Source of the DNA: Winogradskyella sp. | Lineage (GTDB): Bacteria > Bacteroidota > Bacteroidia > Flavobacteriales > Flavobacteriaceae | Direction of reading: 5' to 3' | DNA length: 44,490 bases | NCBI GenBank assembly: GCA_030149175.1 | Contig: JASBSA010000015.1 | Location: 1-44,490 of the forward strand | Shown here: piece after piece, positions 9,843-33,980 of the stretch | Layout: each line of letters starts with the position of its first letter | Position numbering within the stretch: position 1 is the stretch's first letter | Program-made: the position numbers and the translations under genes | The notes under the pieces: model-generated | What the model was told of the DNA's origin: nothing | What the model saw: the letters and a program-made list of their open reading frames with translations, nothing else | Database searches by the model: none

Positions 9843-12641
9843 ATGATAAGCAGAAAGGTCCTATTACTTGTTTTTATAATCTCATCCATTATCCATGGTC
9901 AAGAGATTCCGCCTATACAAATTTTTACGACTCAAGATTATAACGCAGAAGATCAGAATTGGGATATTTCTCAAGACGATGAGGGTGTGATTTATTTTGC
10001 CAACAATAAAGGTCTTTTGAGATATAATGGAGCAAGATGGGAGTTGTTTCCAACTCCGAATCAATCTATTTTAAGGTCGGTTAATATTATCAACTCTAAA
10101 ATCTACTCAGGTAGCTACATGGATTTTGGTTATTGGGAAAAAGATAGCTACGGTGGGCTAACATACACATCTTTAATAGATAGTCATGGTATACAACCAA
10201 AAGAGGATGAGCAGTTTTGGGATATTATAGAGATAGATAATTACATTTTATTTCAATCATTAGATAGAATATATATATATGGCGTTGATACAAATGATTT
10301 TAAGATTATAGATTCTAATCAGAGGATAAACAAAATTTTTAAAGTTGGCGAGACCATATATTTTCAAAAGAACGGCGAGGGTATTTGTGAAATATTAAAT
10401 GGCGAGGAAAAACTCATTCTGTCATCAGAAAAATTTCTAAATCATGAAATTGTTAACATATATAAAGTTGACGAGACATTATTGTTGGTAACTAAGGAAA
10501 ATGGTGTTTATGAATATCGGAATGATGAAGTTTATATATGGGATAATAAGGGGAATGATGTAATTAAGGATTTAAGTATTTACAGTAGTATACAACTTAA
10601 CGATGGGAGTTTCATTTTTGGTACTATCTCAGAGGGTATTTTACATATAAACTCCAAAGGAGATAGAATATTAAAAATAAATCAGTCGGGTGGATTAAGC
10701 AACAATACTGTATTGTCTGCCTTAGAAGATAAACAGGGCAACTTATGGTTGGGTTTAGACAATGGTATTAATTGTGTAAACTTAAACTCACCTTATAGAG
10801 TTTATAAAGATAAACAGGGTGTTTTGGGAACTATCTATGCATCTGTAAAAGTTGGTGATAATCTCTATTTAGGAACTAACCAGGGACTTTTTTATAAGGA
10901 CGTAAAAAATGACTCTAAGTTCAGTTTTATTGAAAAAACCAAAGGTCAGGTCTGGAGTCTAAAGACTATAAAGGGCACATTGTTTTGTGGCCACGATAAA
11001 GGCACTTTTATAATAGAAAACAATAAGGCAGAACTTTTAAATGGGGACATAGGATCTTGGGTTTTAAATGAAATCCAAGATACGCCTAATTTAATTTTAC
11101 AAGGCAGCTACGAAGGATTAAGTGTGTTAGAATTCCAAGACGGAACTTGGTCGTTTAGAAATAAAATCATTGGCTTTGATATGTCTTCTCGTTACTTTGA
11201 GTTTGTAAATCCAAATGAACTTATAATTAATCACGAGTACAAGGGCGTTTATAAGGTAAAATTAGATTCTACCTACAGTAAGGTTTTAGACTTCAAAAAA
11301 TTAGATATAGAAGAAGGGCCTAAATCAAGTATTGCTAAATACCAAGAACATATACTTTATTGTAATAAGAATGGTGTCTACAGCTATAATCAGCAAAAAT
11401 CAGAGTTTATAAGAAATGAGGATTTGAGTGAGTTGATAGAGGGTCAGAATTATTTTTCGGGTAAATTAGTGTATGAAAAAATTAATGATAGGTTATGGCT
11501 ATTCAATAAAAATAGTATCCTCTATGTAGAACCAGGAACACTTTCAGAGAAGCCTAAGGTTAATAATGTTCCTATTCCACATGAACTTAGAAATAGTAAA
11601 GTGGGATACGAAAACATACTTAATATAGATGGAGACGAGTATTTAATTGGAGCAAATGATGGTTACCTGGTAGTTAATCTAAACAAACTCAATCTTGACT
11701 CAAAAGAAGTGGCTATAAATAGTATTTCTTTCAGCTCACTACACAATGAATCCATTAATTTAGATGTTAACGAACCTGCAGAATTAGAGAATAAGAATAA
11801 TAGTATTCTGTTTAAATATAATGTAACAGATTTTAATAAGTTTTCAAATACAAAGTACAAGTACCGATTAGTTGGTATTTATGACTATTGGAGCAATTGG
11901 TCTGCAAAATCAGAAGTTCATTTTGAAAATCTACCTCATGGAGACTATACCTTTGAAGTTAAAGCACATCTAGGTGGAATTGAGTCTAATAATACAGCCT
12001 CTTATAGTTTCGTTATAGAGAAGCCATGGTATTTAAAACCTATGGCAATTGCTACCTATATTATTTTTGGATTATTGTTCCTTTTTCTAATACAGTATTT
12101 TAATAGTAGATATTACAAGAAACAAAAACAAAAACTATTAGAAAAGAAGCAAAGAGAATTAGAGCTAGAACAGCTAGAAAACCAAAGACAACTCATTCAG
12201 TTTAAAAACCAGAACTTACAATTAGATATTGAGAACAAAAACAGAGAGCTAGGTACTGCAACTATGAATTTAGTAAAACGAAACGAGCTACTGAACAGTA
12301 TTAAAGAAGAGCTCTCTAAAAGCAAGTCTTTAAGCGATGTAAAAAAAGTAATAAAACTTATCAACTCTAACCTGAATAACACAAGTGATTGGAAATTGTT
12401 TGAAGAAGCATTCAATAACGTAGATAAAGATTTTTTGAAGAGAATAAAATCACTTCATCCATCTATAACACCAAATGATTTAAGATTATGTGCTTATTTG
12501 AGGTTAAATTTGTCTTCTAAAGAGATCGCGCCACTATTAAATATCTCTCATAAAAGTGTTGAGGTTAAACGATATCGTTTGCGTAAAAAAATGGGATTAG
12601 ACCACGAGCAGAGTCTTACAGACTATATTTTAGATTTATAA
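9843..12641 (+). CDS. Transmembrane PUL regulator: propeller sensor, Y_Y_Y, LuxR HTH
   Basis: A 932-residue one-component sensor-regulator. After a signal peptide (ending IIHGQ) come periplasmic beta-propeller repeats (WDISQDDEGVIYFANNKGLL, ALEDKQGNLWLGLDNGINCV), then a Y_Y_Y domain at about 660-722 (KYRLVGIYDYWSNWS), one transmembrane helix at about 733-753, a coiled coil at about 757-830, and a C-terminal LuxR/GerE-type helix-turn-helix at about 860-925 (SSKEIAPLLNISHKSVEVKR). Unlike hybrid two-component PUL sensors it has no histidine kinase, receiver or AraC domain. It lies 237 bases upstream of susC on the same strand, the usual place for a PUL activator, and probably senses glucan oligosaccharides in the periplasm and activates susC and downstream genes. 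How a membrane-bound helix-turn-helix reaches DNA is not shown by the sequence. Confidence 0.88.
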   Translation: MISRKVLLLVFIISSIIHGQEIPPIQIFTTQDYNAEDQNWDISQDDEGVIYFANNKGLLRYNGARWELFPTPNQSILRSVNIINSKIYSGSYMDFGYWEKDSYGGLTYTSLIDSHGIQPKEDEQFWDIIEIDNYILFQSLDRIYIYGVDTNDFKIIDSNQRINKIFKVGETIYFQKNGEGICEILNGEEKLILSSEKFLNHEIVNIYKVDETLLLVTKENGVYEYRNDEVYIWDNKGNDVIKDLSIYSSIQLNDGSFIFGTISEGILHINSKGDRILKINQSGGLSNNTVLSALEDKQGNLWLGLDNGINCVNLNSPYRVYKDKQGVLGTIYASVKVGDNLYLGTNQGLFYKDVKNDSKFSFIEKTKGQVWSLKTIKGTLFCGHDKGTFIIENNKAELLNGDIGSWVLNEIQDTPNLILQGSYEGLSVLEFQDGTWSFRNKIIGFDMSSRYFEFVNPNELIINHEYKGVYKVKLDSTYSKVLDFKKLDIEEGPKSSIAKYQEHILYCNKNGVYSYNQQKSEFIRNEDLSELIEGQNYFSGKLVYEKINDRLWLFNKNSILYVEPGTLSEKPKVNNVPIPHELRNSKVGYENILNIDGDEYLIGANDGYLVVNLNKLNLDSKEVAINSISFSSLHNESINLDVNEPAELENKNNSILFKYNVTDFNKFSNTKYKYRLVGIYDYWSNWSAKSEVHFENLPHGDYTFEVKAHLGGIESNNTASYSFVIEKPWYLKPMAIATYIIFGLLFLFLIQYFNSRYYKKQKQKLLEKKQRELELEQLENQRQLIQFKNQNLQLDIENKNRELGTATMNLVKRNELLNSIKEELSKSKSLSDVKKVIKLINSNLNNTSDWKLFEEAFNNVDKDFLKRIKSLHPSITPNDLRLCAYLRLNLSSKEIAPLLNISHKSVEVKRYRLRKKMGLDHEQSLTDYILDL

Positions 12642-19542: not shown

Positions 19543-22500
19543 ATGAAAAATAATCTAATAATACTGTTCTTTATGTTTAGTGTGTCTTTTGCACTAGCAC
19601 AATCAGACAAAGTATCCGTTGTGAAAAGTACTGATGGTTTTAGGCTTGTCGTTAATGGAGAAAATATGATGGTAAATGGAATGAATTGGGATTACGTTCC
19701 TATTGGTACCACCATTACAGACACAGGCATTTGGGGCAGATCAGATGATATTATTAAGGCAGCCTTAGATGAAGAGATGCTACTTTTAAGGAATATGGGT
19801 GTTAACGCTATAAGAACTTATGGTCTGGAGCCTAAATGGATTCAATATATCTACGAAAACTATGGAATCTATACCATGCTCAATATTACTTTTGGTGCTT
19901 ACGGTCTAACTATTGATGGAGCTTGGACTCCTCAAACCGACTATGCAGATGAAGCTACAAGAGAAATTCTTATGCAAGAAGCCATTGATATGGCAAATAC
20001 CTATAAAAACACTCCTGGTTTACTATTATACATGATAGGAAACGAAAACAACTATCATTTATCATGGACAGGTGCCGAAACGGAAGCAATTCCTATTGAA
20101 GGTGCTGAAGATACAGGAAAAATTGCTGCTGCTCGGGCATTATATAAAGCGTTTAATGATGCTGCAAAAGAGGTAAAAGCAATTGACCAATCTCACCCAG
20201 TAGCCATATGTAACGGAGATTTGTTGTATTTAGATATTGTAAAACAAGAATGTAAAGACATAGATATCTATGGAACCAATATGTATAGAGGTGTTTCTTT
20301 TGGTGATGCATTTCAACGCGTTAATGATGAATTAGATATGCCTATTCTTTTTGCAGAATTTGGTTCTGACGCTTTTAATGCCAAAGACAACAAAGAAGAC
20401 CAATACATGCAAGCTTATTTTGATGTAGAAAACTGGAAAGATATTTATCAAAATGCAGCCGGTTTAGGTAAAGCAGGAAATTCTATAGGTGGATTTACAT
20501 TTCAGTTTAGTGATGGTTGGTGGAAATTTGGGCAGACTAAAAATCTAGATGTTCATGATAATAATGCTTCTTGGCCAAATGGCGGCTATTATATGGATTT
20601 AGAACCTGGACAAAATAACATGAACGAAGAGTGGTTTGGTATTTGTGCTAAGGGTCAAACGGATTCTAGAGGCTTATATACACTTTACCCTAGAGCTGCT
20701 TATTATGCTTTAAAGGAAGTACATCAACTTAATCCTTATGGTGAAGGTGTTACTCAAGATTTTCTTTATAATTATTTTAAAAATATCAACGTAATGGACG
20801 CGGTACTTAGAGCAAGAGGCGATAAGGCTGCGCTTGGAGGTGGAGATTCAGAAAAATTAAGTATAAGTAGGCTTTCGGCTCAATTCACAACATTTAATAC
20901 AGGTGGTAGTTTAATTACCACACCAGAAACTGAAGATCCAGATGCAAATGTATTTCCAAATCAGTTAGGTTTTGACCATATGCAATCTTACTTTGTTGGT
21001 ATTCAGGGAAAACCTGCAGCTAACATGAGAGCTAATGTAGAGTTCAATATCTTAGGTAATGTAGCTCAAAACCCAATAAATGAAATTTTCTATGAAAATG
21101 TCGGTAGACCAGTTACGGTTACTGGTGAAGAAGAAAACATTATACTAGCAGACAACAATAGATTGCGTGTTTACCAAGCAGAATTTGAATGGAAAGCTAA
21201 GGAATTTGACCTAAGAGGATTTTACAGAACTGGCCACTATCATTGGGCGTATGAAGGAGATTTCTTCAACCTTTATCCTGAGGCTAACTATGGACCAAAT
21301 TTAGATATCTATAATGGTGAAATTCTAGGTGTCGAAGTCGACGCCAAAGGTGAATTAGAAGGTTTGAAAGCTGCTTTTGGACCACAGCTTTGGTGGGGAG
21401 CAAACCCAACAATGTTATTAAAATATTCAAGAAATATCCTTAATTGGGATGTTACAGGAATTTATCATAGAGATCTTAACACAGATTTAGAGTTTGATGA
21501 AAATGGTAGACGAGTCCTAGATCCTAATCAGGTACGTTCAGGTATAATTCCACCATGGCCAACAGAAAGAGCAACTCTTGCTATAGAAAGAGATTTTGGT
21601 AGCTTCGGTGTAACGCTAGGTGGTATGTGGGGAGGTAATCCATTAAATGGGAGTTCTTTTCAAATGTATCAAGAAGAGAATGATGTCGTAGTTGTAGATA
21701 AAGTTAACAGTAAAGATAATTGGGGAGCTAAGGCAAAAGTAACGTACCAAAAAGGACGATTCAATTGGTATGCACAAGGTTCTTACATGGGATTAGTGGC
21801 CAATGGTGGTGCTGATCAAACGAGAACATTTACAGGTTGGAGGCTTAAGGATTCTGGTAGTGGTAACATGACAAATTTCCTGTCAGGTTTCACATACTCT
21901 TTTGGAAATGTACAAGTAGCGCCTAACTTTATGTGGCAAAAACCTTTGGTAGATCCTATGCCAAACGGTGTTTTTGCGCCAGGCCGATTAAGAAATGTTA
22001 TTGATGATCCTTTTGCTGTAAGAGGAGGAAATAGAGAAACAACAGCAGGTGAGGTTTTATTCACTTTTGACCCTACGCCAGGAACTTGGATGTACGAGTG
22101 GAATAACGATAGAGAAGAAGACGCTAAGTTTGCTATGAGCGCAGGATTTGTATACAGACATCTACCAACAACACAAGATGCGCACATAGGTTTCTTAGCA
22201 AATCGTACATTTTTTGCCTTCTCAGAATCTGCACCAGCAGAAGATTTATGGGAAGCACATACCCGTGTAGTTTCAAAACTTAGTCCAGATTTAGGAATCA
22301 TTGGTAACTTCTACTACGGTAACGGACAAGGTAATGGTGATTCAGACAGAACCATTACTCGTTTTGGCGGCGATGTAAGAATGCTTTACAAAAACTTTAA
22401 AGTAATGTCTCATGTTAAAGTGAACGATTGGGGACCTTTTGATTATCACAGAGATTTTAACTTAACGTTTCCGTTGCAGTTAATGCTAGACGTGTCAACA

Positions 22501-22707
22501 ACCCTTGGGAAACCAGATTGGTTTATTTTACCTAGTACACAGGTTGGGATTAGAGGAACTTGGCGTTCTTTAGATCAAAACTCTCCACGTTTCTTGCCTA
22601 ATGCTACTGCCGAGTTTGAAACTGAACCAGCAATAAGCCCAGTAGGCTTTCCTGATGGAACAGAGTGGGAAATAAGAACTTACATCCATATTAATATTGG
22701 TAAATAA
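19543..22707 (+). CDS. Clan GH-A-like glycosidase fused to predicted outer-membrane beta-barrel
   Basis: A 1054-residue secreted protein with signal peptide ending FALAQ. Residues about 25-400 look like a (beta/alpha)8 glycosidase of clan GH-A, near GH2/GH5: an entry strand (FRLVVNGENMMVNGMNWDY), LLRNMGVNAIRTYG, a likely acid/base Glu168 in IGNEN after strand 4, and a likely nucleophile Glu272 in ILFAEFG after strand 7. From about residue 430 to the end the sequence changes to alternating hydrophobic/polar strands separated by Gly/Asp/Asn-rich turns (FDLRGFYRTGHYHW, GVTLGGMWGG, FNWYAQGSYMG, FKVMSHVKVNDW), typical of an outer-membrane barrel, though it ends in Lys rather than Phe. It lies in the PUL, 133 bases after the binding-protein gene. 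The exact GH family is uncertain; action on beta-glucan is inferred from context. Confidence 0.8.
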   Translation: MKNNLIILFFMFSVSFALAQSDKVSVVKSTDGFRLVVNGENMMVNGMNWDYVPIGTTITDTGIWGRSDDIIKAALDEEMLLLRNMGVNAIRTYGLEPKWIQYIYENYGIYTMLNITFGAYGLTIDGAWTPQTDYADEATREILMQEAIDMANTYKNTPGLLLYMIGNENNYHLSWTGAETEAIPIEGAEDTGKIAAARALYKAFNDAAKEVKAIDQSHPVAICNGDLLYLDIVKQECKDIDIYGTNMYRGVSFGDAFQRVNDELDMPILFAEFGSDAFNAKDNKEDQYMQAYFDVENWKDIYQNAAGLGKAGNSIGGFTFQFSDGWWKFGQTKNLDVHDNNASWPNGGYYMDLEPGQNNMNEEWFGICAKGQTDSRGLYTLYPRAAYYALKEVHQLNPYGEGVTQDFLYNYFKNINVMDAVLRARGDKAALGGGDSEKLSISRLSAQFTTFNTGGSLITTPETEDPDANVFPNQLGFDHMQSYFVGIQGKPAANMRANVEFNILGNVAQNPINEIFYENVGRPVTVTGEEENIILADNNRLRVYQAEFEWKAKEFDLRGFYRTGHYHWAYEGDFFNLYPEANYGPNLDIYNGEILGVEVDAKGELEGLKAAFGPQLWWGANPTMLLKYSRNILNWDVTGIYHRDLNTDLEFDENGRRVLDPNQVRSGIIPPWPTERATLAIERDFGSFGVTLGGMWGGNPLNGSSFQMYQEENDVVVVDKVNSKDNWGAKAKVTYQKGRFNWYAQGSYMGLVANGGADQTRTFTGWRLKDSGSGNMTNFLSGFTYSFGNVQVAPNFMWQKPLVDPMPNGVFAPGRLRNVIDDPFAVRGGNRETTAGEVLFTFDPTPGTWMYEWNNDREEDAKFAMSAGFVYRHLPTTQDAHIGFLANRTFFAFSESAPAEDLWEAHTRVVSKLSPDLGIIGNFYYGNGQGNGDSDRTITRFGGDVRMLYKNFKVMSHVKVNDWGPFDYHRDFNLTFPLQLMLDVSTTLGKPDWFILPSTQVGIRGTWRSLDQNSPRFLPNATAEFETEPAISPVGFPDGTEWEIRTYIHINIGK

Positions 22708-22713
22708 AATTCT

Positions 22714-24132
22714 ATGATTATGAAAAATAAAAAATTAAAATTCAGTATCATCTTACCTTTAATAGGTTTGATATCTATCGTGGCAATCAGTTGCGAAAGA
22801 GGTTTTTCAGATGATGTAGATTTAGCAACATTTCCAACAAATGGGGATATCTACACAGATGATCCGGTAGGTTTAACAGATGATTTTTTTGAATCTTTTG
22901 ATCCTGCTACTGGTGCAAACACTAATGGATTTGGTACTGATAATAATGAAGTTTATGAAGGGTCATCTTCAATCAGAATTGATGTACCAAGCCCAAATGA
23001 TCCAGATGGTGGTTATATAGGTGGTATTTTTAGAGATCGAGGTGAAGGTAGGGATTTAACAAGCTATGACGCCTTAACATTTTGGGCAAAAGCATCAACC
23101 TCCGCAATTATTGAGGTAGGATTTGGTTCGGATTTTATTGAAGATAAATATGCTGTAGGTATAAATGATTTAGAACTTTCAACAGCGTGGGAAAAATATA
23201 TCATTCCTATTCCTGATCCATCAAAACTAGTTCAAGAACGAGGACTTTTTTTATTTTCAGCTGGTACTGAAAGCACTAACGGAGCATCTTATTCCTTTTG
23301 GATTGATGAGTTACGTTTTGAAACCTTAGGTACTCTTGGACAACCTAGACCGAGAATACTTGGTGGACAAGACCAAACAGCACAAGCCAATATAGATACA
23401 TCAGTACCATTGATAGGTTTGTCCTATACGGCTAACCTTCCTAACGGACAAGATGTTACAGTGTCTGCAACACCCTCATATTTTGATTTTGAAACGTCTA
23501 ACCCATTCGTAGCATCAGTAGACGAATTAGGTGTTGTTACTGTTGATGGCCCTGGTGAAGGTGGAAATAATACAGCGCTAATCACAGCAAGTCTTGGTGG
23601 TATAGAGGCTCAGGGTTCACTAACTGTAGAGGCTGTAGATATTGAGGTTATTTCAATTTTTAGCGATGTTTTTGCCAATGTGCCAGTTGACAATTACAAT
23701 GGGTTTTATGCAGAGTTTCAAACAACACTAGGTGGAGCGGTCAATGAGAATGGTAATAACGTGATAACCTATACTGATTTAAATTTCGTAGCTATTGAGT
23801 TTTACGGAAGAGACGGTAGTGGTGTACAACCTGTAGATGCAACAGATATGACCCACTTGCACATTGAGATTAGAGTTAATGAAGGTATTGATCCTGCAGA
23901 CTTTCTTAGATTTGAATTGTTTAATGACTTTACCTTACCAGCTCAACTATCAGGTTCTTACACTATTGCAGCTAATGAACTTCTAAGCAATCAATGGGTA
24001 GAGTTTGATATTCCATTATCAAGCTTCACTGGTCTAACATCTAGAAATGCTTTAGGTGCATTATTCACGGTGTCAGACGCAACCCTATCAAATGTATCCT
24101 TGGATAACATTTATTTCTACGCAGAAAACTAA
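22714..24132 (+). CDS. Surface lipoprotein with two beta-sandwich (CBM-like) modules
   Basis: A 472-residue lipoprotein with lipobox at Cys27 (IVAISC). It contains a first jelly-roll-like domain (about 45-208: YEGSSSIRIDVP, LTSYDALTFWAKAS, WIDELRFE), a bacterial Ig-like BIG2 region (about 225-312: VSATPSYFDFETSNPFVASV, NTALITASLGG) and a second jelly-roll (about 313-472: EVISIFSDVFANVPVDNYNG, WVEFDIPLSSFTGL, SLDNIYFYAEN). The last module recurs in the two T9SS proteins at 35157-38160. No catalytic residues are seen, so it is probably a surface glucan-binding protein. Start ATG is at 22714; ATG 22720 (MKNKK) is equally possible. It is six bases after the hydrolase/barrel gene and four bases before the GH16 gene. 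Confidence 0.85.
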   Translation: MIMKNKKLKFSIILPLIGLISIVAISCERGFSDDVDLATFPTNGDIYTDDPVGLTDDFFESFDPATGANTNGFGTDNNEVYEGSSSIRIDVPSPNDPDGGYIGGIFRDRGEGRDLTSYDALTFWAKASTSAIIEVGFGSDFIEDKYAVGINDLELSTAWEKYIIPIPDPSKLVQERGLFLFSAGTESTNGASYSFWIDELRFETLGTLGQPRPRILGGQDQTAQANIDTSVPLIGLSYTANLPNGQDVTVSATPSYFDFETSNPFVASVDELGVVTVDGPGEGGNNTALITASLGGIEAQGSLTVEAVDIEVISIFSDVFANVPVDNYNGFYAEFQTTLGGAVNENGNNVITYTDLNFVAIEFYGRDGSGVQPVDATDMTHLHIEIRVNEGIDPADFLRFELFNDFTLPAQLSGSYTIAANELLSNQWVEFDIPLSSFTGLTSRNALGALFTVSDATLSNVSLDNIYFYAEN

Positions 24133-24136
24133 AAAA

Positions 24137-24988
24137 ATGCTAAAAATGAAAACTAAAATTTTAAACAATAAACTAAAGTCAATCCTTATCTGCACTGTAT
24201 TTAGTGTTGGATGCATGATTTTGGTTTCTAACTGTAATCCAGACGAAACACAAAATGTGACTAATTTCAATACCATATCCATGCAAGATGAGTTCGATGT
24301 AGATGGAGCACCAAATCCGGCTATGTGGACCTATGATATAGGTACTGGTAATAATGGATGGGGAAATAATGAGCTTCAGTATTATACAGATAGGCCAGAA
24401 AATGTTGTTGTAGAAGATGGTATGCTAAAAATTACTGCAATTCAAGAAGATTTTGAAGGCTCTGGTTACACATCCGCAAGACTTTTAACGCAAGGTTTGT
24501 TTGAGCAAAAATACGGACGTTTTGAAGCTAGAATGAAATTACCATATGGAAAAGGTATGTGGCCAGCATTTTGGTTATTGGGTGCCAATATAGACGAGAT
24601 TAGTTGGCCATTTTGTGGCGAAATTGATGTCATGGAAAATGGTGGCTCAAAACCGACAATTGTTAGTGGTGCAGTTCACGGACCCGGATATTCAGCAGGT
24701 AATGCCATTGTAAAAGAATATGAATTTACGGATAGTCGCGTAGATTCCGAATTTCATATTTATGGCATAGAATGGGGACCAAACTATATTAATTACTATG
24801 TTGATGATGTACTCTATAACCAAATTACTCCTGAAGATGTAACAGGAGACTGGGTTTTTAACAATGGCCCATTTTTCATGATTATTAATTTAGCAGTTGG
24901 TGGTGTGTTTGATGGTAATCCTAATGAAAACACAGTGTTTCCGCAAACAATGTACGTAGACTACGTAAGAGTGTATTCGGCTAACTAA
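24137..24988 (+). CDS. GH16 endo-beta-1,3-glucanase (laminarinase) lipoprotein
   Basis: A 283-residue lipoprotein (lipobox LVSNC, Cys33) followed by NPDE. The catalytic domain fills the rest. The GH16 signature GEIDVMENGG carries the nucleophile Glu162, Asp164 and acid/base Glu167. Other family features are WTYDIGTGNNGWGNNELQYY, YTSARLLTQGLFEQKYGRFE, GKGMWPAFWLLG, the HGPGYS segment and IEWGPNYINYYVDD. This set is typical of bacterial laminarinases rather than agarases or carrageenases. It should cleave beta-1,3-linkages at the cell surface or in the periplasm. I chose ATG 24137, four bases after the preceding stop; ATG 24146 is equally plausible. A further upstream ATG at 24056 lies inside the preceding gene and would spoil the signal peptide. 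Confidence 0.95.
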   Translation: MLKMKTKILNNKLKSILICTVFSVGCMILVSNCNPDETQNVTNFNTISMQDEFDVDGAPNPAMWTYDIGTGNNGWGNNELQYYTDRPENVVVEDGMLKITAIQEDFEGSGYTSARLLTQGLFEQKYGRFEARMKLPYGKGMWPAFWLLGANIDEISWPFCGEIDVMENGGSKPTIVSGAVHGPGYSAGNAIVKEYEFTDSRVDSEFHIYGIEWGPNYINYYVDDVLYNQITPEDVTGDWVFNNGPFFMIINLAVGGVFDGNPNENTVFPQTMYVDYVRVYSAN

Positions 24989-25008: not shown

Positions 25009-25040
25009 AAGGTCAAGAATTATAACATCTTGACCTTTTT
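25009..25040 (+). terminator. Hairpin/attenuator between GH16 and phosphorylase genes
   Basis: A perfect 10-bp stem (AAGGTCAAGA 25009-25018 with TCTTGACCTT 25028-25037) has a 9-nt loop and ends in TTTTT (25036-25040). It has the form of an intrinsic terminator but lies within a run of co-directional genes. Its arms share GGTCAA/TTGACC with the inner hairpin at 19435-19461. It includes the TTG at 25030. Confidence 0.72.
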
Positions 25041-25077
25041 GACCCTTACCATAAAATTTACAATTATTACTAAGACA

Positions 25078-28000
25078 TTGAAAGATATAATTACAAAAGA
25101 TAAAGACATTTCTCTAGAGCCAGTAAACATAGATAACAAGGCATATTTTAAGATATCTAATAGTGACCAAATGCGTCCATTTTTTATGAGCATAGTCAGT
25201 GATTCCAACCACTGGATGTTTATATCGAGTAATGGCGGTTTAACTGCAGGAAGAAAGAATGCCGAGTACGCACTTTTCCCTTACTATTCAGACGATAAAA
25301 TCACAGAGTTTTCAGAAATAACTGGTGCAAAATCTATTTTTCAAGTCACAAAAAATGGCAAAAAATACATTTGGGAACCCTTTTCAATCCGATTTCAAGA
25401 TAGCTACAATACCAAACGTAATCTTTACAAAAGCGTGTATGGTAATGCTTTGATTTTTGAAGAGGTAAATGTTGATCTCGATTTAACTTTTAGATATGAG
25501 TGGTGTTCTAGTAATAAGTATGGATTTGTCAAAAAATCAACTTTAGTTAATAATTCTGACCAAACGGTTGAAGTAAAGCTTGTAGACGGTATTCAGAATG
25601 TAATGCCTTTTGGCGTTAGCAGTGCACTTCAAAACGCAAGTAGTAACTTGGTTGATGCATACAAGAGAACAGAGTTGGTAGAGCAGTCTGGAGTAGGAAT
25701 TTTTGCTCTGAGTGCTATTATCGTAGACAAAGCAGAGCCAAGCGAGGCTCTTAAAGCTAATATCGCTTGGTCCTTGGGTATTAAAAATCCTACTTACTTA
25801 TTATCTTCTTTGCAGTTAGATACATTTAGAAAATTTGGTGAGCTTACACAAGAAACCGACGTTAAAGCAGAAAAAGGCGCTTATTTCATTAATACTGCGT
25901 TACAGTTAGATTCAAAAGAATCTAAAAATTGGATGATTGTAGCCAATGTTAACCAAGATGTCTCAGATATTATTGCTATTTCTAAACAAATAGAAACAGA
26001 TAATAAACTTTTGAGTAAAGTTGAAGCAAATATTCAACTTGGCACTAAAAAATTGATAAAACTCAATGCCTCATCAGACGGTTTACAGTTAACTTCAGAT
26101 AACTTTAGGGATACCAGACATTTTTCAAACACGCTTTTCAACATTATGCGAGGTGGTATTTTTGATGATGGCTACAATATTGAAAAATGGGATTTTGAAA
26201 ACTATTTAAAGAATGCCAATAAAGATGTACATCGTCAAAGTGACGATATATTAAAAGATTTACCTGAAACATTCTCTTTGCAAACCTTACGAAAGTTTGC
26301 CAATTGGAACAATAATAAAGATTTTAAGAGACTAGCTCTAGAATATTTGCCACTAAAGTTTAGTAGACGACACGGTGACCCTAGCAGACCTTGGAATAAG
26401 TTTTCAATCAATACCAGAAGTGAGGTAGATGGTTCTAAAATTCTAGATTACGAAGGTAACTGGAGAGATATTTTCCAAAACTGGGAAGCGCTTGCCGTTT
26501 CTTATCCAGAGTTTATTGAAAACATGATTCATAAGTTTCTCAATGCCACTACGTTTGATGGTTATAACCCTTACCGCGTAACCAAAGGTGGTTTTGACTG
26601 GGAGACAATTGAGCCAGACGACCCGTGGTCTTACATAGGATATTGGGGTGACCATCAAATCATATATTTGTTGAAGTTTCTTGAGTTTATAGAAGATTAT
26701 AACCCTGGAAAATTAGAGAGTTTCTTCTCTCAAGATATTTTCGTCTATGCGAATGTACCCTATAAAATCAAAGGCTATCAAGATATTTTAAAAAATCCAA
26801 AAGACACCATAGAGTTTAATGAAGATTCCGATAAGGAAATACGATTAAAAAGAGATAAGATTGGTGCAGATGGTGCATTATTGCAATATTCAAATGGAAC
26901 TGTTGTTAGAGCGAATTTTTTGGAGAAGATTTTAGCAACAACCTTAGCTAAACTTTCAAACTTTATACCAGAAGGCGGTATATGGATGAATACCCAAAGA
27001 CCAGAATGGAACGACGCCAATAACGCCTTGGTTGGTAATGGAGTGTCTATGGTAACACTCTATTATCTCAGAAGGTTTTTAAAGTTTTTTGAGGGTGTTT
27101 TTAACAATACATCTCTGACTGAAATTGAAGTTTCATCAGAAATAGCTGAGTTTTTTAATGCTGTTAAATCCGCATTTCAGAAAAACGAATCCATTTTAGA
27201 TGGCAAAATAGATAATATTTCAAGAAAACAACTTTTAGACTTGCTAGGTTTGGCGGGTAGCAACTACAGAGAGCATATCTATAATAATTCATTCTCTGGA
27301 GATAAAATAAAAATAACTCTAAGTGATGTTTTAGACTTCACCAAAACAGCTATTAAGCATCTAGAGCACTCGATAAATGCTAACAGAAGAAGCGATAATC
27401 TATACCACGCCTACAATCTTATGACCGTTAAGGGAGATGAGGTTTCTATTTCGTATTTAGACGAAATGTTAGAGGGCCAAGTTGCGGTATTGAGTTCTGG
27501 ATATTTAAGTTCTAAGGAAAATCTAGCAGTTTTAGATGGTCTAAAGCAAAGCAAATTGTTTAGAGAAGATCAGTATAGCTATGTCCTATATCCGTTTAAA
27601 AACCTCAAAGGTTTTATGGACAGGAATACAATTCCTTATAGCGCTGTCAATGATTCTAAATTATTGAAAACTTTAGTATCGGACGGTAACACACAGATCC
27701 TTAAAAAGGATAGTAATGGTGATTACCATTTCAATGGAAATTTTAAAAATGGAAATGATTTAAAAAAGGCACTTCAAAACCTAAAAGACACCAAATATGA
27801 AAGCTTAGTCAATAACGAAGAAGAAGCCGTTCTTAAAGTTTTTGAAGATGTATTTAACCACAAAGCATTTACAGGTCGTTCAGGGACGTTTTATGGTTAT
27901 GAAGGTTTGGGCTCTATTTATTGGCATATGGTTTCAAAATTGCAGCTAGCGGTAATGGAAGTATGTCAAAAGGCAATCGCTGAGAATGAATCGGCAGAAG

Positions 28001-28521
28001 TTATAGGAAGGCTATTAGAGCATTATTACGAAATCAACGAAGGTATAGGCGTACATAAATCGCCAGAATTATATGGTGCCTTCCCTACCGATCCGTATTC
28101 ACATACACCTGCAAATAAAGGAGCGCAACAACCAGGAATGACAGGTCAGGTAAAAGAAGATATTCTCAGTCGTTTCGGAGAATTAGGTGCTTTTGTAAAA
28201 GATGGCTTGTTAGTGTTTAACCCTTCTATGTTAAGGAAAAATGAATTTTTAGATCAAGCACAAACCTTCAACTATATTGATGTCAAAGGAGAAGAATCAA
28301 CCATCGAGGTTAATAACAATCAGCTGGTGTTTACCTATTGCCAAGTACCTGTAGTTTATGCCATTTCCGATACATATAAAACAACAGTTTCGTTAAACGA
28401 TGGTTATCAACAGGCTTTTGATCAAATGGGTTTGGATAAAGAATTAAGTGAGAAGGTGTTTAGTCGTTCAGGGGATATTAAGCACATTAAAGTTCATATC
28501 AAAGAAGACTATTTAAGGTAA
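25078..28521 (+). CDS. GH149-like beta-1,3-oligoglucan phosphorylase
   Basis: A cytoplasmic protein of about 1147 residues with no signal peptide. The sequence resembles glycoside phosphorylases related to GH94 and specifically the long GH149 type: N-terminal beta-sandwich (NGGLTAGRKNAEYALFPYYS, RYEWCSSNKYGFVKKS), then an (alpha/alpha)6 domain with the likely catalytic Asp region FDWETIEPDDPWSYIGYWGD (about residues 505-525) and GRSGTFYGYEGLGSIYWHMV. Such enzymes cleave beta-1,3-oligoglucans with phosphate to give glucose 1-phosphate. The start is unusual: the open frame has no ATG until residue 32 of this model (QMRPF), so TTG at 25078 is the likeliest start; TTG 25030 and 25039 fall in or next to a terminator-like hairpin. 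Context with GH16, GH17, GH30 and a sugar symporter supports the activity. Family assignment is from recognition, not alignment. Confidence 0.8.
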   Translation: MKDIITKDKDISLEPVNIDNKAYFKISNSDQMRPFFMSIVSDSNHWMFISSNGGLTAGRKNAEYALFPYYSDDKITEFSEITGAKSIFQVTKNGKKYIWEPFSIRFQDSYNTKRNLYKSVYGNALIFEEVNVDLDLTFRYEWCSSNKYGFVKKSTLVNNSDQTVEVKLVDGIQNVMPFGVSSALQNASSNLVDAYKRTELVEQSGVGIFALSAIIVDKAEPSEALKANIAWSLGIKNPTYLLSSLQLDTFRKFGELTQETDVKAEKGAYFINTALQLDSKESKNWMIVANVNQDVSDIIAISKQIETDNKLLSKVEANIQLGTKKLIKLNASSDGLQLTSDNFRDTRHFSNTLFNIMRGGIFDDGYNIEKWDFENYLKNANKDVHRQSDDILKDLPETFSLQTLRKFANWNNNKDFKRLALEYLPLKFSRRHGDPSRPWNKFSINTRSEVDGSKILDYEGNWRDIFQNWEALAVSYPEFIENMIHKFLNATTFDGYNPYRVTKGGFDWETIEPDDPWSYIGYWGDHQIIYLLKFLEFIEDYNPGKLESFFSQDIFVYANVPYKIKGYQDILKNPKDTIEFNEDSDKEIRLKRDKIGADGALLQYSNGTVVRANFLEKILATTLAKLSNFIPEGGIWMNTQRPEWNDANNALVGNGVSMVTLYYLRRFLKFFEGVFNNTSLTEIEVSSEIAEFFNAVKSAFQKNESILDGKIDNISRKQLLDLLGLAGSNYREHIYNNSFSGDKIKITLSDVLDFTKTAIKHLEHSINANRRSDNLYHAYNLMTVKGDEVSISYLDEMLEGQVAVLSSGYLSSKENLAVLDGLKQSKLFREDQYSYVLYPFKNLKGFMDRNTIPYSAVNDSKLLKTLVSDGNTQILKKDSNGDYHFNGNFKNGNDLKKALQNLKDTKYESLVNNEEEAVLKVFEDVFNHKAFTGRSGTFYGYEGLGSIYWHMVSKLQLAVMEVCQKAIAENESAEVIGRLLEHYYEINEGIGVHKSPELYGAFPTDPYSHTPANKGAQQPGMTGQVKEDILSRFGELGAFVKDGLLVFNPSMLRKNEFLDQAQTFNYIDVKGEESTIEVNNNQLVFTYCQVPVVYAISDTYKTTVSLNDGYQQAFDQMGLDKELSEKVFSRSGDIKHIKVHIKEDYLR

Positions 28522-28527
28522 AAAAAT

Positions 28528-29835
28528 ATGAGGATCATGAAAAACAGAAAAATAATCATATATGTTTTGTGTACAGTATTCATGATGTCTTGTGAAAGTG
28601 AAAAGAAGAAGAAAGAGCAAGAGCCTTCAACCCAAATTAAAAAAGAAGTGACAGCAAAAGATATATTAGGAAATCCGGATTATTTGGCCATTTCTTATGG
28701 TGGATATAGAGAAAAGACTAGAGATAGTCAGCCTTCAATCGCAGAGCTAAAAGAAGATTTAAGAATCCTTTCGGCAATGGGTATTAAGTTGATCAGAACC
28801 TATAACGTTCAACCAAAATTGCCACACGCATCAAATGTTTTAAAGGCCATTTCAGAATTGAAAACCGAAGACCAAAATTTTGAAATGTATGTTATGCTTG
28901 GGGCTTGGATAGATTGCCTAAATGCATGGACAGATAAAGTGCCAAATCATGAAGTCGAAAGTCCTAACAACGAAGGTGAGATTAAAAGAGCAGTGGCCTT
29001 AGCTAATCAATATCCAGACATAGTAAAAATAATTGCAGTTGGCAATGAGGCCATGGTAAAATGGGCAACATCGTATTATGTGCAACCAGCTGTAATTTTA
29101 AAATGGGTGAAACATTTACAAGAATTAAAAAACAAAGGTGAGTTGCCAAAAGACCTTTGGATTACAAGTTCAGATGATTTTGCGTCTTGGGGAGGCGGTG
29201 AGAGTAGCTATCATGTTGATGATTTAAATGAATTAATAAAAGCGGTTGACTTTATCTCTATGCATACCTACCCTTACCATAATACACATTACAATCCAGA
29301 GTTTTGGGGAGTTCCAGAAGCTCATGCCAATATGCCAGACACCACGAAAATTGAAATGGCAATGGAACGAGCTATAAAATTTGCCCAAAAGCAGTACGAC
29401 AGTGTTACGAATTATATGAAAAGCCTAGGAGTCAATAAACCAATACATATAGGAGAAACAGGCTGGGCAACCACTTCTACAGGTTACTATGGGCCAGATG
29501 GTTCAAGAGCCACAGACGAATATAAGCAAGGTCTGTATTACAAACAAATGAGACGATGGACCAACAGAGCAGGTATTTCTTGTTTTTATTTTGAAGCTTT
29601 TAACGAGCAGTGGAAAGACGCCCACAATCCATATGGATCGGAAAACCATTTTGGATTATTCACAATAGACGGAGAAGCAAAATATCCAATTTGGGATTTA
29701 GTTGACAAAGGAATTTTTAAAGGATTAAAAAGAAATGGTAATCCCATTGTTAAGACCTACAATGGTAATAAAAAAGCACTTCTTAAAGAGGTTTTAGTGC
29801 CACCATCAGAAAATGAAATTATGGCAAATAAATAA
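28528..29835 (+). CDS. GH17 beta-1,3-glucanase lipoprotein
   Basis: A 435-residue lipoprotein with lipobox at Cys22 (VFMMSC). The tail ESEKKKKEQE is mixed acidic/basic, so a periplasmic rather than surface position is likely. The GH17 (clan GH-A) catalytic pair is visible: acid/base Glu174 in AVGNEAM and nucleophile Glu310 in IGETGW. Other typical segments are IKLIRTYNVQP, VMLGAWID, ISMHTYPY and CFYFEAFNEQWK. Enzymes of this family cut internal beta-1,3-glucosidic links, some with transglycosylation. It starts six bases after the phosphorylase stop (ATG 28528; ATG 28537 is an alternative). The C-terminal 40 residues after IFKGLKRN are an extension beyond the usual catalytic domain. Confidence 0.92.
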   Translation: MRIMKNRKIIIYVLCTVFMMSCESEKKKKEQEPSTQIKKEVTAKDILGNPDYLAISYGGYREKTRDSQPSIAELKEDLRILSAMGIKLIRTYNVQPKLPHASNVLKAISELKTEDQNFEMYVMLGAWIDCLNAWTDKVPNHEVESPNNEGEIKRAVALANQYPDIVKIIAVGNEAMVKWATSYYVQPAVILKWVKHLQELKNKGELPKDLWITSSDDFASWGGGESSYHVDDLNELIKAVDFISMHTYPYHNTHYNPEFWGVPEAHANMPDTTKIEMAMERAIKFAQKQYDSVTNYMKSLGVNKPIHIGETGWATTSTGYYGPDGSRATDEYKQGLYYKQMRRWTNRAGISCFYFEAFNEQWKDAHNPYGSENHFGLFTIDGEAKYPIWDLVDKGIFKGLKRNGNPIVKTYNGNKKALLKEVLVPPSENEIMANK

Positions 29836-29955: not shown

Positions 29956-31449
29956 ATGAAAGCACTAAGAATTAGTATTTATTGTCTTTTAATATCAGCT
30001 ATGAGTTGTAATACCCAACCACAAGAGTTAAAAGTTGAAATTTTTGAAACTTCAGCAAATGGAAATAAATTAACTCAAATAGAGCCTTTGTCATCAGATA
30101 AAAAACTTGGTAAATTGCCTGTCATTAGAATACTGCAAGACCAAAAGTTTCAAACCATAACAGGTTTTGGTGGTGCATTTACAGAATCTTCAGCATACTT
30201 ACTCAATAAACTAAGTCAAAAAAACAGAGACCTTATTCTAAAAGCGTATTTCAGTGAAGAAGGGGCTAATTATTCACTATGCAGAACACACATGAATTCT
30301 TGTGATTTTTCATTAGATCACTATTCTTATACTCCAACAGAAGATAAAGACTTAAAAGACTTTTCTGTTAAGGAAGATATGGACGATTTAATTCCAATGA
30401 TTAAAGATGCTCAAGCTATTTCAAAAGATGGCTTTAAATTGTTTGCTTCACCATGGACAGCACCACCTTGGATGAAAGATAATAAGGACTGGGTTGGAGG
30501 TAAGCTACTCAAAGAACATTATCCAACTTGGGCGTTATTTTTCTCGAAATATATAGAGGCTTATAAAGAGCAGGGTATTGAGCTTTGGGGTTTTACGGTT
30601 GAAAATGAACCTCATGGTAATGGCAATAATTGGGAAAGTATGCATTTTACACCAACAGAAATGACAGATTTTGTTCAACATCACTTAGGACCAAAATTAG
30701 AAGCTGATGGTTATGGGGACAAAATTATTTTAGGCTATGATCAAAATAGAGCAGGCTTAAAAGAATGGGTAGATGTTATGTATGCCACTGAAGAATCATC
30801 CAAATATTATGATGGCACAGCGATACATTGGTATGAAAGCACTTATGAGGTCTTTCCAGAAGATCTTCAGTATGCGCATAATAAAGCACCAGATAAATAT
30901 CTTATAGAAACCGAAGGTTGTATAGATGCACAAGTACCAGTATGGAAAGATGATGCTTGGTACTGGAAAAAAGAAGCCACAGATTGGGGCTGGGATTGGG
31001 CAGCAGAAGAAGATAAATATCTGCATCCTAAATATGCACCAGCAAATAGATATGCAAGAGATATTATCGGTTGCTTAAATAATTGGGTAGATGGTTGGGT
31101 AGATTGGAATATGGTTTTAAACAAACAAGGAGGCCCTAATTGGTTTAAAAACTGGTGTATCGCGCCTGTAATTGTAGATGAAAATAACGATGAAGTATAT
31201 TTTACACCATTGTATTATATAATGACCCACTTTAGTAAGTATATACGTCCGGGTGCTGAAGTTTTGGGAATTGACAATGAAGATTCTGATTTAATGATTA
31301 CTGCGGCAAAAAACCCAGATGATACTACTGCAATTGTAATATTTAATGAAGGAAAAGAAGCTAAGAAGTTTCACTTATGGCTTAACGAAAAGCAAACCGC
31401 AATACATATAGATGCTCAGGCTATTCAAACTATACTAATACCTAACTAA
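29956..31449 (+). CDS. GH30 beta-glucosidase/glucanase lipoprotein
   Basis: A 497-residue lipoprotein with lipobox at Cys18 (LLISAMSC) and a non-acidic tail NTQPQ, suggesting a periplasmic position. It carries the GH30 hallmarks: ITGFGGAFTESSAY near the start, FASPWTAPPWMK, acid/base Glu218 in FTVENEPHG and nucleophile Glu320 in LIETEGC, plus the beta-sandwich formed by both ends (C-terminal part about 420-497, TTAIVIFNEG). In marine Bacteroidota laminarin loci GH30 enzymes act on beta-1,6 side branches, and that is the likely job here, clearing the main chain for GH16/GH17. It is preceded by a 120-bp gap with a dispersed repeat and followed after 12 bases by the symporter gene. Confidence 0.93.
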   Translation: MKALRISIYCLLISAMSCNTQPQELKVEIFETSANGNKLTQIEPLSSDKKLGKLPVIRILQDQKFQTITGFGGAFTESSAYLLNKLSQKNRDLILKAYFSEEGANYSLCRTHMNSCDFSLDHYSYTPTEDKDLKDFSVKEDMDDLIPMIKDAQAISKDGFKLFASPWTAPPWMKDNKDWVGGKLLKEHYPTWALFFSKYIEAYKEQGIELWGFTVENEPHGNGNNWESMHFTPTEMTDFVQHHLGPKLEADGYGDKIILGYDQNRAGLKEWVDVMYATEESSKYYDGTAIHWYESTYEVFPEDLQYAHNKAPDKYLIETEGCIDAQVPVWKDDAWYWKKEATDWGWDWAAEEDKYLHPKYAPANRYARDIIGCLNNWVDGWVDWNMVLNKQGGPNWFKNWCIAPVIVDENNDEVYFTPLYYIMTHFSKYIRPGAEVLGIDNEDSDLMITAAKNPDDTTAIVIFNEGKEAKKFHLWLNEKQTAIHIDAQAIQTILIPN

Positions 31450-31461
31450 CACTAAAAAATT

Positions 31462-33027
31462 ATGTCAGAAGTTAAAACTGTTTCTAGAAATAAAGTGCCT
31501 TTAGGACAAAAAGCTGCCTTTGGAGCTGGTCATTTTATATTAAATATCCTACCAGGAACGTTAGGTGTTTTTATTCAATTTTTCTTACTAACAGCGTGGG
31601 GTGTAGACCCTTTATGGGCAGGGCTTTTAGGCGGTTTACCAAGAATATTTGACTCTATTACTGACCCAATAATGGGTTTTATATCGGATAATACAAAGTC
31701 TAAGTGGGGAAGACGACGACCATATATTTTTATCGGTGCAATCATTAGTGGTATACTATTCTTTTTAATGTGGCAATTAGACGATAATGCATCTCAAAGT
31801 TATATTATATGGCATGTCATGGTTTTGCAATTGTTGTTTCTTATTGGAAATACAATGTTTGCTACACCTCTTGTAGGTTTAGGTTATGAAATGACATCAG
31901 ATTATAATGAACGTACTAGATTAATGGCCTTTTCTAACACCATGGGCCAAATTGCATGGATGATAGTGCCTTGGTTATACGTAATAATACCTGATACTGA
32001 AACTTTTAACACTCAAACAGAAGGTGTACGAACTATGGCACTTATTGTTGGAATCATGTGTGCAGTATTCGGAATTTTACCTGCGTTATTTTGTAAAGGA
32101 ATAGATTCGTCGCACATGGAGAACCGAAAAGAAATCAACTTTAAAACATTGGCTTCTAATATGAAGGAGCTCCTTGCAGGTATAGTTCAGGTTTCTAAGA
32201 ACAAACCTTTTATGAAACTTTGTGGCGCTACTTTTTTAGTGTTTAATGGTTTTCAATTGGTTGCTGCATTCGGTGTTTTTATTATAGTATTTTACATGTA
32301 TAATGGTAGTTATGAACTGGCGGGAACATGGCCAGCTTGGTTTAATACTATAAACGCTATAATTACAGCATTTATAGTAATTCCTATTATTTCTAGAATG
32401 GCCAACAAATGGGGTAAGAAGAATGCCTTTATTATTTCTACTGTGCTGTCAATCATAGGATATGTGCTAAAATGGTGGGGCTTTGATAAAGAATTAAATA
32501 GTGAATTTGCACAAACAGGTTTGGGCAAAAGTTTAAATTCAGGAGTTGGTTCTTTATTTGAATCTTTAAATCCAGTCTTAGAAAATATTGGTATGTCTTG
32601 GTTTAGTATAGAGCCAGGAAGTGAAATCCCGTGGCTAATATTTTTTCCAATACCGTTATTTGCATTTGGAATGGGAGGTCTGTTTACTCTTATGATGTCA
32701 ATGACTGCAGATGTTTGCGATTTAGATGAATTGGAAAATGGTATGCCAAGGAAAGAAGGCACATTTGGAGCTATATATTGGTTAATGGTGAAGATTGGCC
32801 AATCTATAGCACTAGTTTTAGGTGGTGTTATATTAAGCATTGTTGGTTTTGATCCTAATGCAACAGAGCAATCTATAGAAACCATGAACAACCTTAGAAT
32901 CGCAGATATATTAGTTCCATCAGCTACTGCAGCATTAGCTATTTGGGTCATGTGGAGGTATAGTTTAACAGAAGAAAGAGCTAGAGAAATAAAGGCGGAG
33001 TTGGTAGAGCGAAGAGGTGAATTATAA
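31462..33027 (+). CDS. GPH-family sugar:cation symporter (MFS)
   Basis: A 521-residue polytopic inner-membrane protein. The glycoside-pentoside-hexuronide (MelB-type) signature is clear in the first third: LPRIFDSITDPIMGFISDNT followed by KSKWGRRRPYIF, between transmembrane helices 2 and 3. About twelve hydrophobic segments are present, and a long loop at about 345-390 (WGFDKELNSEFAQTGLGK through WFSIEPGSEIP) lies between late helices. It should carry glucose or short beta-glucan oligosaccharides across the inner membrane with a cation. It is flanked by the GH30 lipoprotein gene (12 bases) and two signal-less GH17 genes (16 bases to the first), which suggests oligosaccharides rather than only monosaccharide are imported. 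Confidence 0.93.
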   Translation: MSEVKTVSRNKVPLGQKAAFGAGHFILNILPGTLGVFIQFFLLTAWGVDPLWAGLLGGLPRIFDSITDPIMGFISDNTKSKWGRRRPYIFIGAIISGILFFLMWQLDDNASQSYIIWHVMVLQLLFLIGNTMFATPLVGLGYEMTSDYNERTRLMAFSNTMGQIAWMIVPWLYVIIPDTETFNTQTEGVRTMALIVGIMCAVFGILPALFCKGIDSSHMENRKEINFKTLASNMKELLAGIVQVSKNKPFMKLCGATFLVFNGFQLVAAFGVFIIVFYMYNGSYELAGTWPAWFNTINAIITAFIVIPIISRMANKWGKKNAFIISTVLSIIGYVLKWWGFDKELNSEFAQTGLGKSLNSGVGSLFESLNPVLENIGMSWFSIEPGSEIPWLIFFPIPLFAFGMGGLFTLMMSMTADVCDLDELENGMPRKEGTFGAIYWLMVKIGQSIALVLGGVILSIVGFDPNATEQSIETMNNLRIADILVPSATAALAIWVMWRYSLTEERAREIKAELVERRGEL

Positions 33028-33961: not shown

Positions 33962-33980
33962 ACATAAAGTGTCCTAAACT

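Follow-up and report, generated by a model that had tools for sequence, protein, structure and literature searches.

A clan GH-A glycosidase joined to a predicted plug-less outer-membrane barrel and co-inherited with a lipoprotein in laminarin-type gene clusters of Bacteroidota

Few food sugars in the ocean are as abundant as laminarin, whose uptake in Bacteroidota is attributed to TonB-driven SusC/SusD systems; barrels of the SusC/BtuB type have 22 strands. Another arrangement around an outer-membrane barrel is found in autotransporters with enzymatic passengers (type V secretion), in which an N-terminal enzyme is followed by a helical linker and a C-terminal barrel. A laminarin enzyme and a transporter are joined in Formosa, where FORMB_24740 is a fusion of a major facilitator superfamily (MFS) transporter with a GH17 enzyme (PMC6246565). 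Here we describe a gene from Winogradskyella sp. that lies in a stretch of 44,490 nucleotides (contig JASBSA010000015.1, our contig C77, of a 2.5-Mb draft genome that is 75% complete); this whole stretch is called the window below. The gene (19543-22707, plus strand) is a single intact open reading frame of 1054 aa with an ATG start and without an internal stop. A preliminary description had read it as a glycosidase and an outer-membrane barrel in one protein, and structure prediction, fold search and conservation agree: as modelled, the chain almost certainly combines a clan GH-A enzyme with an outer-membrane barrel. There is also good support for the co-inheritance of a lipoprotein with this plug-less fusion, in laminarin-type gene clusters.

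The sole Pfam match in the window protein is Glyco_hydro_2_C at residues 62-304, with an expectation value (E) of 9.2e-8, above the cut-off. This GH2 TIM-barrel domain is matched at E <= 0.01 by 19 of 22 enzyme-half sequences, an alignment that takes in three distant ones. AlphaFold2 models of the full protein and of the barrel half alone were each built with 69 sequences, and the full-length model (mean predicted local distance difference test score, pLDDT, 75.4; predicted template-modelling score, pTM, 0.54) has a TIM barrel at about residues 24-400. Foldseek places two GH158 structures at the top of its matches (9oro, E 4e-13; BuGH158 6pal, E 1.9e-12), followed by GH157 9g5g (E 7e-11), and a profile search with the enzyme half matches GH158 (E 5.8e-8 and 5.7e-7) and GH2 beta-galactosidases. 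Glu168 (GNEN) and Glu272 (AEFG), the candidate catalytic residues of the preliminary description, hold up well: both are invariant in 69 aligned sequences and in the 22 enzyme-half sequences, and they align with the GH158 catalytic pair, Glu168 on a GNE motif and Glu272 on a TEFG/TEWG motif. In clan GH-A the catalytic glutamates are positioned on strands 4 and 7, and the TIM barrel with its invariant Asn167-Glu168 and Glu272 places the domain in this clan. Because of the GH158 match and the aligned, invariant glutamates, we read the enzyme half as a putative retaining beta-glucanase or glucosidase acting on beta-1,3-glucan, an activity and substrate suggested by its fold and its neighbours. 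GH2 enzymes carry jelly-roll and immunoglobulin-like (Ig-like) domains ahead of the TIM barrel; here the TIM barrel begins at residue 24, directly behind the signal peptide, and we do not assign the protein to GH2, which is the annotation name of the fusion's relatives. Nor is it placed in GH158 proper, given a profile E of only 6e-8 and an outer-membrane barrel in place of the Ig-like domain. For BuGH158, the available part of the paper names N136, E137 and E220 and states that alanine mutants lose activity, with the data not displayed (PMC7157763).

Behind the TIM barrel, the full-length model has helices at 405-413 and 417-432 and then strands at 439-1053. Modelled alone, the barrel half has 24 strands of at least 8 residues (pTM 0.75, mean pLDDT 75.5), and each of the 50 listed among its 819 Foldseek matches (E up to 10) is an outer-membrane barrel; BtuB3G3 (E 4e-10), Campylobacter MOMP, OprC and ZnuD head the list. 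The checks that the preliminary description had proposed, structure prediction and profile searches of the two halves, thus return a TIM barrel followed by a predicted 24-strand membrane barrel, glycosidase matches for the enzyme half, and a barrel half assigned by Foldseek in place of Pfam. This C-terminal half matches no Pfam family at E <= 1, and 19 C-half sequences searched against Pfam gave one chance-level match to DUF6882 (E 0.11) and none to an autotransporter model. The TonB plug PF07715 had no match in the fusion protein in the same search that found it in the neighbouring SusC (E 8.7e-19). A TonB transporter with a degenerate plug was rejected, since only the signal peptide, the TIM barrel and the linker precede the barrel.

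The strand pattern itself has the character of a membrane barrel. The gap in hydrophobicity between strand faces is 2.36 units, compared with 1.43 (standard deviation 0.22) after shuffling, and 0 of 5000 within-strand shuffles were as high; conservation is 0.84 at pore-facing and 0.72 at lipid-facing positions, and several loops hardly vary. The loops 1-2, 3-4 and so on have a mean of 24 residues and are acidic, with a summed net charge of about -27, and turns 2-3, 4-5 and so on have a mean of 5. The protein therefore combines a signal peptide, an even number of amphipathic strands, alternating short and long loops, and fold matches, as an outer-membrane beta-barrel should, and a soluble C-terminal sandwich or propeller, which would have overturned the preliminary description, is contradicted by the fold matches as far as prediction allows. 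That the predicted barrel has a role in transport is a view that we somewhat favor.

In the usual topology of outer-membrane barrels, long loops point outwards. On this rule the chain would enter strand 1 from the periplasm, and strand 1 and the enzyme ahead of it would by default stand on the periplasmic side, a placement that we consider reasonably probable for the modelled protein. The preliminary description had cleavage taking place at the pore mouth. The loop lengths speak against this and put the enzyme at the exit, where it would act on sugar that has passed the pore; the main alternative is that the enzyme itself passes outwards through the barrel, as the passenger of an autotransporter does.

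The fusion is widely kept. Among 296 genomes of the order that were searched for it, 18 have a match and 13 have a full-length, colinear copy, the window's own included. In GTDB, at least 588 stretches matched a pattern, 581 of which were verified as relatives of one kind or another, and locus counts in this text refer to the best 80 by score of these at least 581 relatives. All 80 are full-length fusions, spanning residues 32-1049 or more with identities of 64-83%, and nearly all come from Flavobacteriaceae or its genera (one is from Lewinellaceae and one from Saprospiraceae). An assembly or frameshift artefact, a concern raised at the outset, is excluded by the 12 other colinear copies in the order and by the same fusion in 80 of 80 best-scoring loci. 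Conservation over 68 sequences is 72% for the barrel and 68% for the enzyme.

Samples of the whole phylum were searched with profiles of the barrel (395 genomes), the enzyme (390) and the lipoprotein (385). The barrel profile matched 35 genomes and found an intact barrel in 33 of them, in open frames of 1028-1084 residues scoring at least 892 bits (G477 has the tail of its copy on a different contig), and a fragment with stops in G401 and G502. The intact barrel always stands behind the enzyme (33/33 genomes), with the enzyme match in the same frames. The enzyme profile gave 56 matches, and in 12 genomes the enzyme (E < 1e-50) occurs without an intact barrel: G201, G401, G616, G388, G588, G556, G405, G509, G585, G365, G419 and G502 (broken). 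Enzyme frames contain stops in G588, G365 and G502, and the G585 copy is cut at a contig end. When the barrel was sought directly in the same 12 genomes, nothing beyond the known fragments came up; in G401, the fragment lies directly behind the enzyme gene, which points to loss of the barrel. A quick-search tree without bootstrap, built from 67 enzyme sequences that include every fourth of the 80 GTDB loci, holds ten enzyme-alone rows, two in the outgroup, two near the base and six among fused rows, with five changes between the fused and alone labels. The simplest reading of these sequences is that the barrel was repeatedly lost to give the enzyme-alone forms. The two near-base rows (L172 and L173, family f44) could predate the fusion, and the ancestor could have had the enzyme alone. 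The tree does not establish faster evolution of the enzyme after barrel loss: enzyme-alone rows account for three of the four longest end branches, but the longest of all (L166, 0.99) belongs to a fused row. In three genomes of the order (L024, L025 and L026), GH17- and GH30-like genes adjoin a distant relative that has the enzyme alone (about 335 aa, 29-31% identity to the window protein); in L024 and L025, inspection shows a lipobox in it.

The partner lipoprotein is found in 78/80 loci and is the next gene downstream in 77/80; in the other three, two loci stop at a contig edge and one has no neighbor by our rule. Its start, Cys-Glu-Arg, does not vary among 13 aligned copies. Across the phylum sample, 55 genomes match the lipoprotein at E 1e-20. 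The match is full-length (E < 1e-100) in 33, exactly the 33 genomes with an intact barrel, and is confined to the C-terminal domain in 21. By listed coordinates it adjoins the barrel in 32/33 genomes (G477 and G563 on contig pieces), and in G423 the two are about 9.5 kb apart on the same contig. A search of the 12 enzyme-only genomes found a full-length lipoprotein in 0/12, with the C-terminal domain in G388, G405 and G365 and a trace in G556. The tie between lipoprotein and barrel (33/33, 0/12) argues that both work together.

The setting of the gene is that of a laminarin locus, with the marker genes GH16, GH17, GH30, GH149 and MFS clustered on one strand of the window. Among the 80 loci, GH16 is present in 75, GH149 in 62, a GH17a-type gene in 52, GH30 in 44, a GH17b-type gene in 10, MFS in 21, and SusC and SusD in 24 each; many of these loci are cut by contig ends or by the 10-kb flank, which affects the neighbor counts. 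A LuxR-type regulator occurs in 68/80 and lies directly upstream of the fusion gene in 46/80. The preliminary description had placed the gene between SusCD-type genes and a laminarinase. This is true of the window, with its SusC/SusD and GH16 genes, and does not extend to most relatives: of the 60 loci with both 10-kb flanks complete, for which SusC presence was scored, 39 show no SusC within 10 kb. Across the 21 loci with a well-covered SusC, mean identity to the window's counterpart is 74.9% for the barrel half and 53.2% for SusC, with the barrel higher in 20, a comparison that favors the barrel because the loci had been chosen by similarity of the fusion. Searched at E 1e-6 with SusC and SusD of the window, six stretches from outside the order (L175-L178 of 19 kb each, Persicobacter record L181 and Bacteroides finegoldii stretch L179) gave no match. 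In Bacteroides finegoldii NZ_OY725931.1 a gene for a DUF6377 protein is followed by those for the fusion (55.7% identity to the window protein), the lipoprotein, GH16, a fimbrillin-family protein and a hypothetical protein and by bglX, and SusC/SusD are absent by sequence, in both halves, and among the listed features of this 45.8-kb record, whose gene table is incomplete. The record (L179, L180) is labelled a plasmid and carries genes for valine-tRNA ligase, rpsA (ribosomal protein S1), FtsK and glutamine synthetase, which makes it probably a piece of chromosome.

We propose that the fusion is an uptake port for beta-1,3-glucan of the laminarin type with a built-in hydrolase, a full mechanism for which we see the chances as evenly balanced. 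The partner lipoprotein would capture glucan at the cell surface, the GH16 lipoprotein would shorten it there, and the oligosaccharides would cross through the barrel. The tethered enzyme at the periplasmic exit would then cut the incoming oligosaccharides, and this cutting could make a plug-less, diffusion-driven pore effectively one-way and drive net import. The cut products would go on to the lipoprotein enzymes of GH17 and GH30, to the MFS importer and to the GH149 phosphorylase. More tentatively, and with doubt prevailing, the fusion may stand for a SusCD- and TonB-independent class of glycan uptake, with a wide channel, a beta-glucanase at its exit and a co-inherited lipoprotein, in which hydrolysis and not TonB energy gives one-way import. 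If true, laminarin would have a second entry route, with enzyme and channel in one chain that has so far been labelled only GH2, and an overlooked way of taking up a major marine sugar may have come to light. Loci without SusC/SusD would also escape SusCD-based definitions of polysaccharide utilisation loci, and the class missed by such searches would include the locus of a gut Bacteroides.

A number of observations weigh against the proposed uptake port. Transport, the side of the enzyme and its substrate are all things that we infer. The fold matches of the barrel half have template-modelling scores (TM-scores) of only 0.27-0.42 and root-mean-square deviations of 10-17 Å, which makes strand number, closure and pore size of the predicted barrel uncertain, and at a full-length pTM of 0.54 the model does not fix the placement of the enzyme relative to the barrel. 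The window itself holds a SusC/SusD that could do the uptake, SusC is present in 21/60 fully flanked loci, L035 has SusD without SusC in its stretch, and in genomes without local copies SusC/SusD could lie elsewhere. Some lineages keep the enzyme and have no barrel. Finally, G408 contains a near-full-length, weaker relative of the lipoprotein (positions 44-470, E 2.9e-75) and was matched by neither the barrel nor the enzyme search, so such a relative can exist alone. Its match region is G408:C1:379424-381127, with an open frame of 780 aa.

The strongest competing explanation, unlikely in our judgment, is surface display: the barrel would export the enzyme and anchor it outside in the manner of an autotransporter, with a helix in the pore, and SusC/SusD would do the uptake. 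The helical linker of about 30 residues directly ahead of strand 1 fits this, as do SusC in the window and in 21 of the fully flanked loci and the lipobox seen by inspection in 6/10 enzyme-alone tree rows, as if a membrane anchor mattered. (Acidity behind the lipobox was set aside as too weak a surface signal; one enzyme-alone protein equals SusD in its first five residues.) Against it, the barrel has no autotransporter Pfam match and 24 modelled strands, not 12; the nearly invariant loops and conserved pore-facing residues would be uncommon in an anchor; local SusC is missing from most fully flanked loci; and the default topology keeps the enzyme inside. Less probable still is that the barrel passes no sugar and only tethers a periplasmic beta-glucanase to the outer membrane. 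The persistence of the lone enzyme beside GH149, GH17 or GH30 in several genomes, where the barrel is then dispensable, and those same six lipoboxes would suit a mere anchor, but the barrel is as conserved as the enzyme and more so than SusC in 20 of 21 loci, and the full-length lipoprotein is kept with the barrel and missing from the 12 genomes without an intact one. That the C-terminal half is a soluble beta-rich domain, or the fusion an assembly artefact, is scarcely credible, since the low TM-scores and missing Pfam match are outweighed by 50 of 50 top-listed fold matches to outer-membrane barrels, by strand, turn, loop and alternation patterns that fit a membrane barrel, and by the recurrence of the fusion in all 80 best loci.

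Features of the fusion gene and its surroundings in the window
Feature	Position	Strand	Basis
Propeller/Y_Y_Y/LuxR-type regulator	9843..12641	+	library match
SusC	12879-16010	+	library match
SusD	16016-17527	+	library match
Whole fusion gene, 1054 aa	19543..22707	+	open reading frame; full-length relatives
Signal peptide, residues 1-20, ends ALAQ, without lipobox	19543..19602	+	inspection; model helix 2-17
Clan GH-A TIM-barrel glycosidase domain, residues 24-400	19612..20742	+	Pfam PF02836 E 9.2e-8; model; Foldseek
Glu168, predicted acid/base, preceded by Asn167	20044..20046	+	invariant; on GNE motif of GH158 9oro, 6pal
Glu272, predicted nucleophile	20356..20358	+	invariant; on TEFG/TEWG motif of GH158 chains
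Helical linker, helices 405-413 and 417-432, conserved ARxDKA stretch	20755..20838	+	model; alignments
Predicted outer-membrane beta-barrel, about 24 strands, residues 439-1053, no plug domain	20857..22701	+	model; Foldseek; strand pattern
Partner lipoprotein, 472 aa, probably surface glycan-binding; lipobox SC, then ERGFSDD	22714..24132	+	next gene downstream
GH16 beta-glucanase, lipoprotein-like; true start likely near 24137	24056..24988	+	Pfam PF00722 E 2e-25; signal region by inspection
GH149 beta-1,3-glucan phosphorylase	25030..28521	+	NCBIfam NF058639, 1801.6 bits, above cut-off
GH17 enzyme, lipoprotein-like	28528..29835	+	Pfam PF00332 E 4.3e-9
GH30 enzyme, lipoprotein-like	29956..31449	+	Pfam PF02055 E 1.7e-77
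MFS sugar transporter, inner membrane	31462..33027	+	Pfam PF13347 E 9.3e-64
Two GH17 genes, without signal peptide by inspection	33044-33961, 33981-34874	+	Pfam PF00332

By inspection, the GH149 phosphorylase has no clear signal peptide at its N-terminus and is likely cytoplasmic. Other genes of the window deserve mention in their own right. Between SusD and the fusion gene, 17556-19409 encodes a 617-aa lipoprotein with three near-alike tandem modules, two of which start GSWRLAPEAGAFGVGPGQGNVSWFSSS and one GTWRLVPEAGAFGVGPGQGDVSWFSSS; in Pfam it has at best a sub-threshold lipocalin-like match. The protein at 35157-36734 has a Por secretion tail and a domain (35793-36470) that matches the C-terminal part of the partner lipoprotein at E 5e-23. 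Outside the cluster, at the window edge, a second TonB-dependent receptor barrel match lies at 456-959 on the minus strand, in an 848-aa open frame.

No description of the fusion was found in the open-access literature searched, a search that excluded other papers, supplements and preprints, and the available parts of PMC6298971, PMC11345257 and PMC7553746 make no mention of it. The gene has very probably been seen under another name. Laminarin clusters of Muricauda contain a 'GH2 beta-glycosidase' (PMC13188888), for which the accessible portion of the paper mentions no membrane barrel. One record listed there, SGIU01000001.1 (strain 176CP4-71), is the contig of our locus L062, and strain 2012CJ35-5 of the same paper is that of L049, under another contig number; because of this coincidence of record and strain, we take that GH2 gene to be, very probably, the fusion gene studied here.

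Each of the closest known systems shares some features with the fusion. GH2 shares the TIM-barrel Pfam domain, but the fusion lacks the N-terminal jelly-roll and Ig-like domains. GH158 (BuGH158 6pal; GH158(Pro) 9oro) is the best profile and fold match of the enzyme half, with the glutamate pair aligned, and BuGH158 likewise sits in a beta-1,3-glucan locus, according to the part of the paper available (PMC7157763). In BuGH158, however, an Ig-like domain follows the TIM barrel, where the fusion has a membrane barrel, and the profile match is weak (E 6e-8). FORMB_24740, from what is accessible of its description, also puts a laminarin enzyme and a transporter in one chain, maybe coupling cleavage and uptake as in the fusion, but its transporter has twelve MFS helices and its enzyme belongs to another family, whereas the fusion has an outer-membrane barrel (PMC6246565). 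The window's own GH17 pair (33044-34874), behind a separate MFS gene, may correspond to the unfused state of that Formosa protein. SusC/SusD and BtuB-BtuG, like the fusion, pair an outer-membrane barrel with a dedicated lipoprotein, and BtuB3G3 ranks first among the fold matches of the barrel half; in contrast to SusC and BtuB, the fusion has no TonB plug or carboxypeptidase-like domain, has about 24 strands and carries an enzyme. Autotransporters have the same order of parts. Membership by a 12-strand barrel or Pfam domain does not apply, given no match in 19 members and 24 strands, and compared with a classical autotransporter the fusion has twice the strands, no family match, and a conserved pore and loops.

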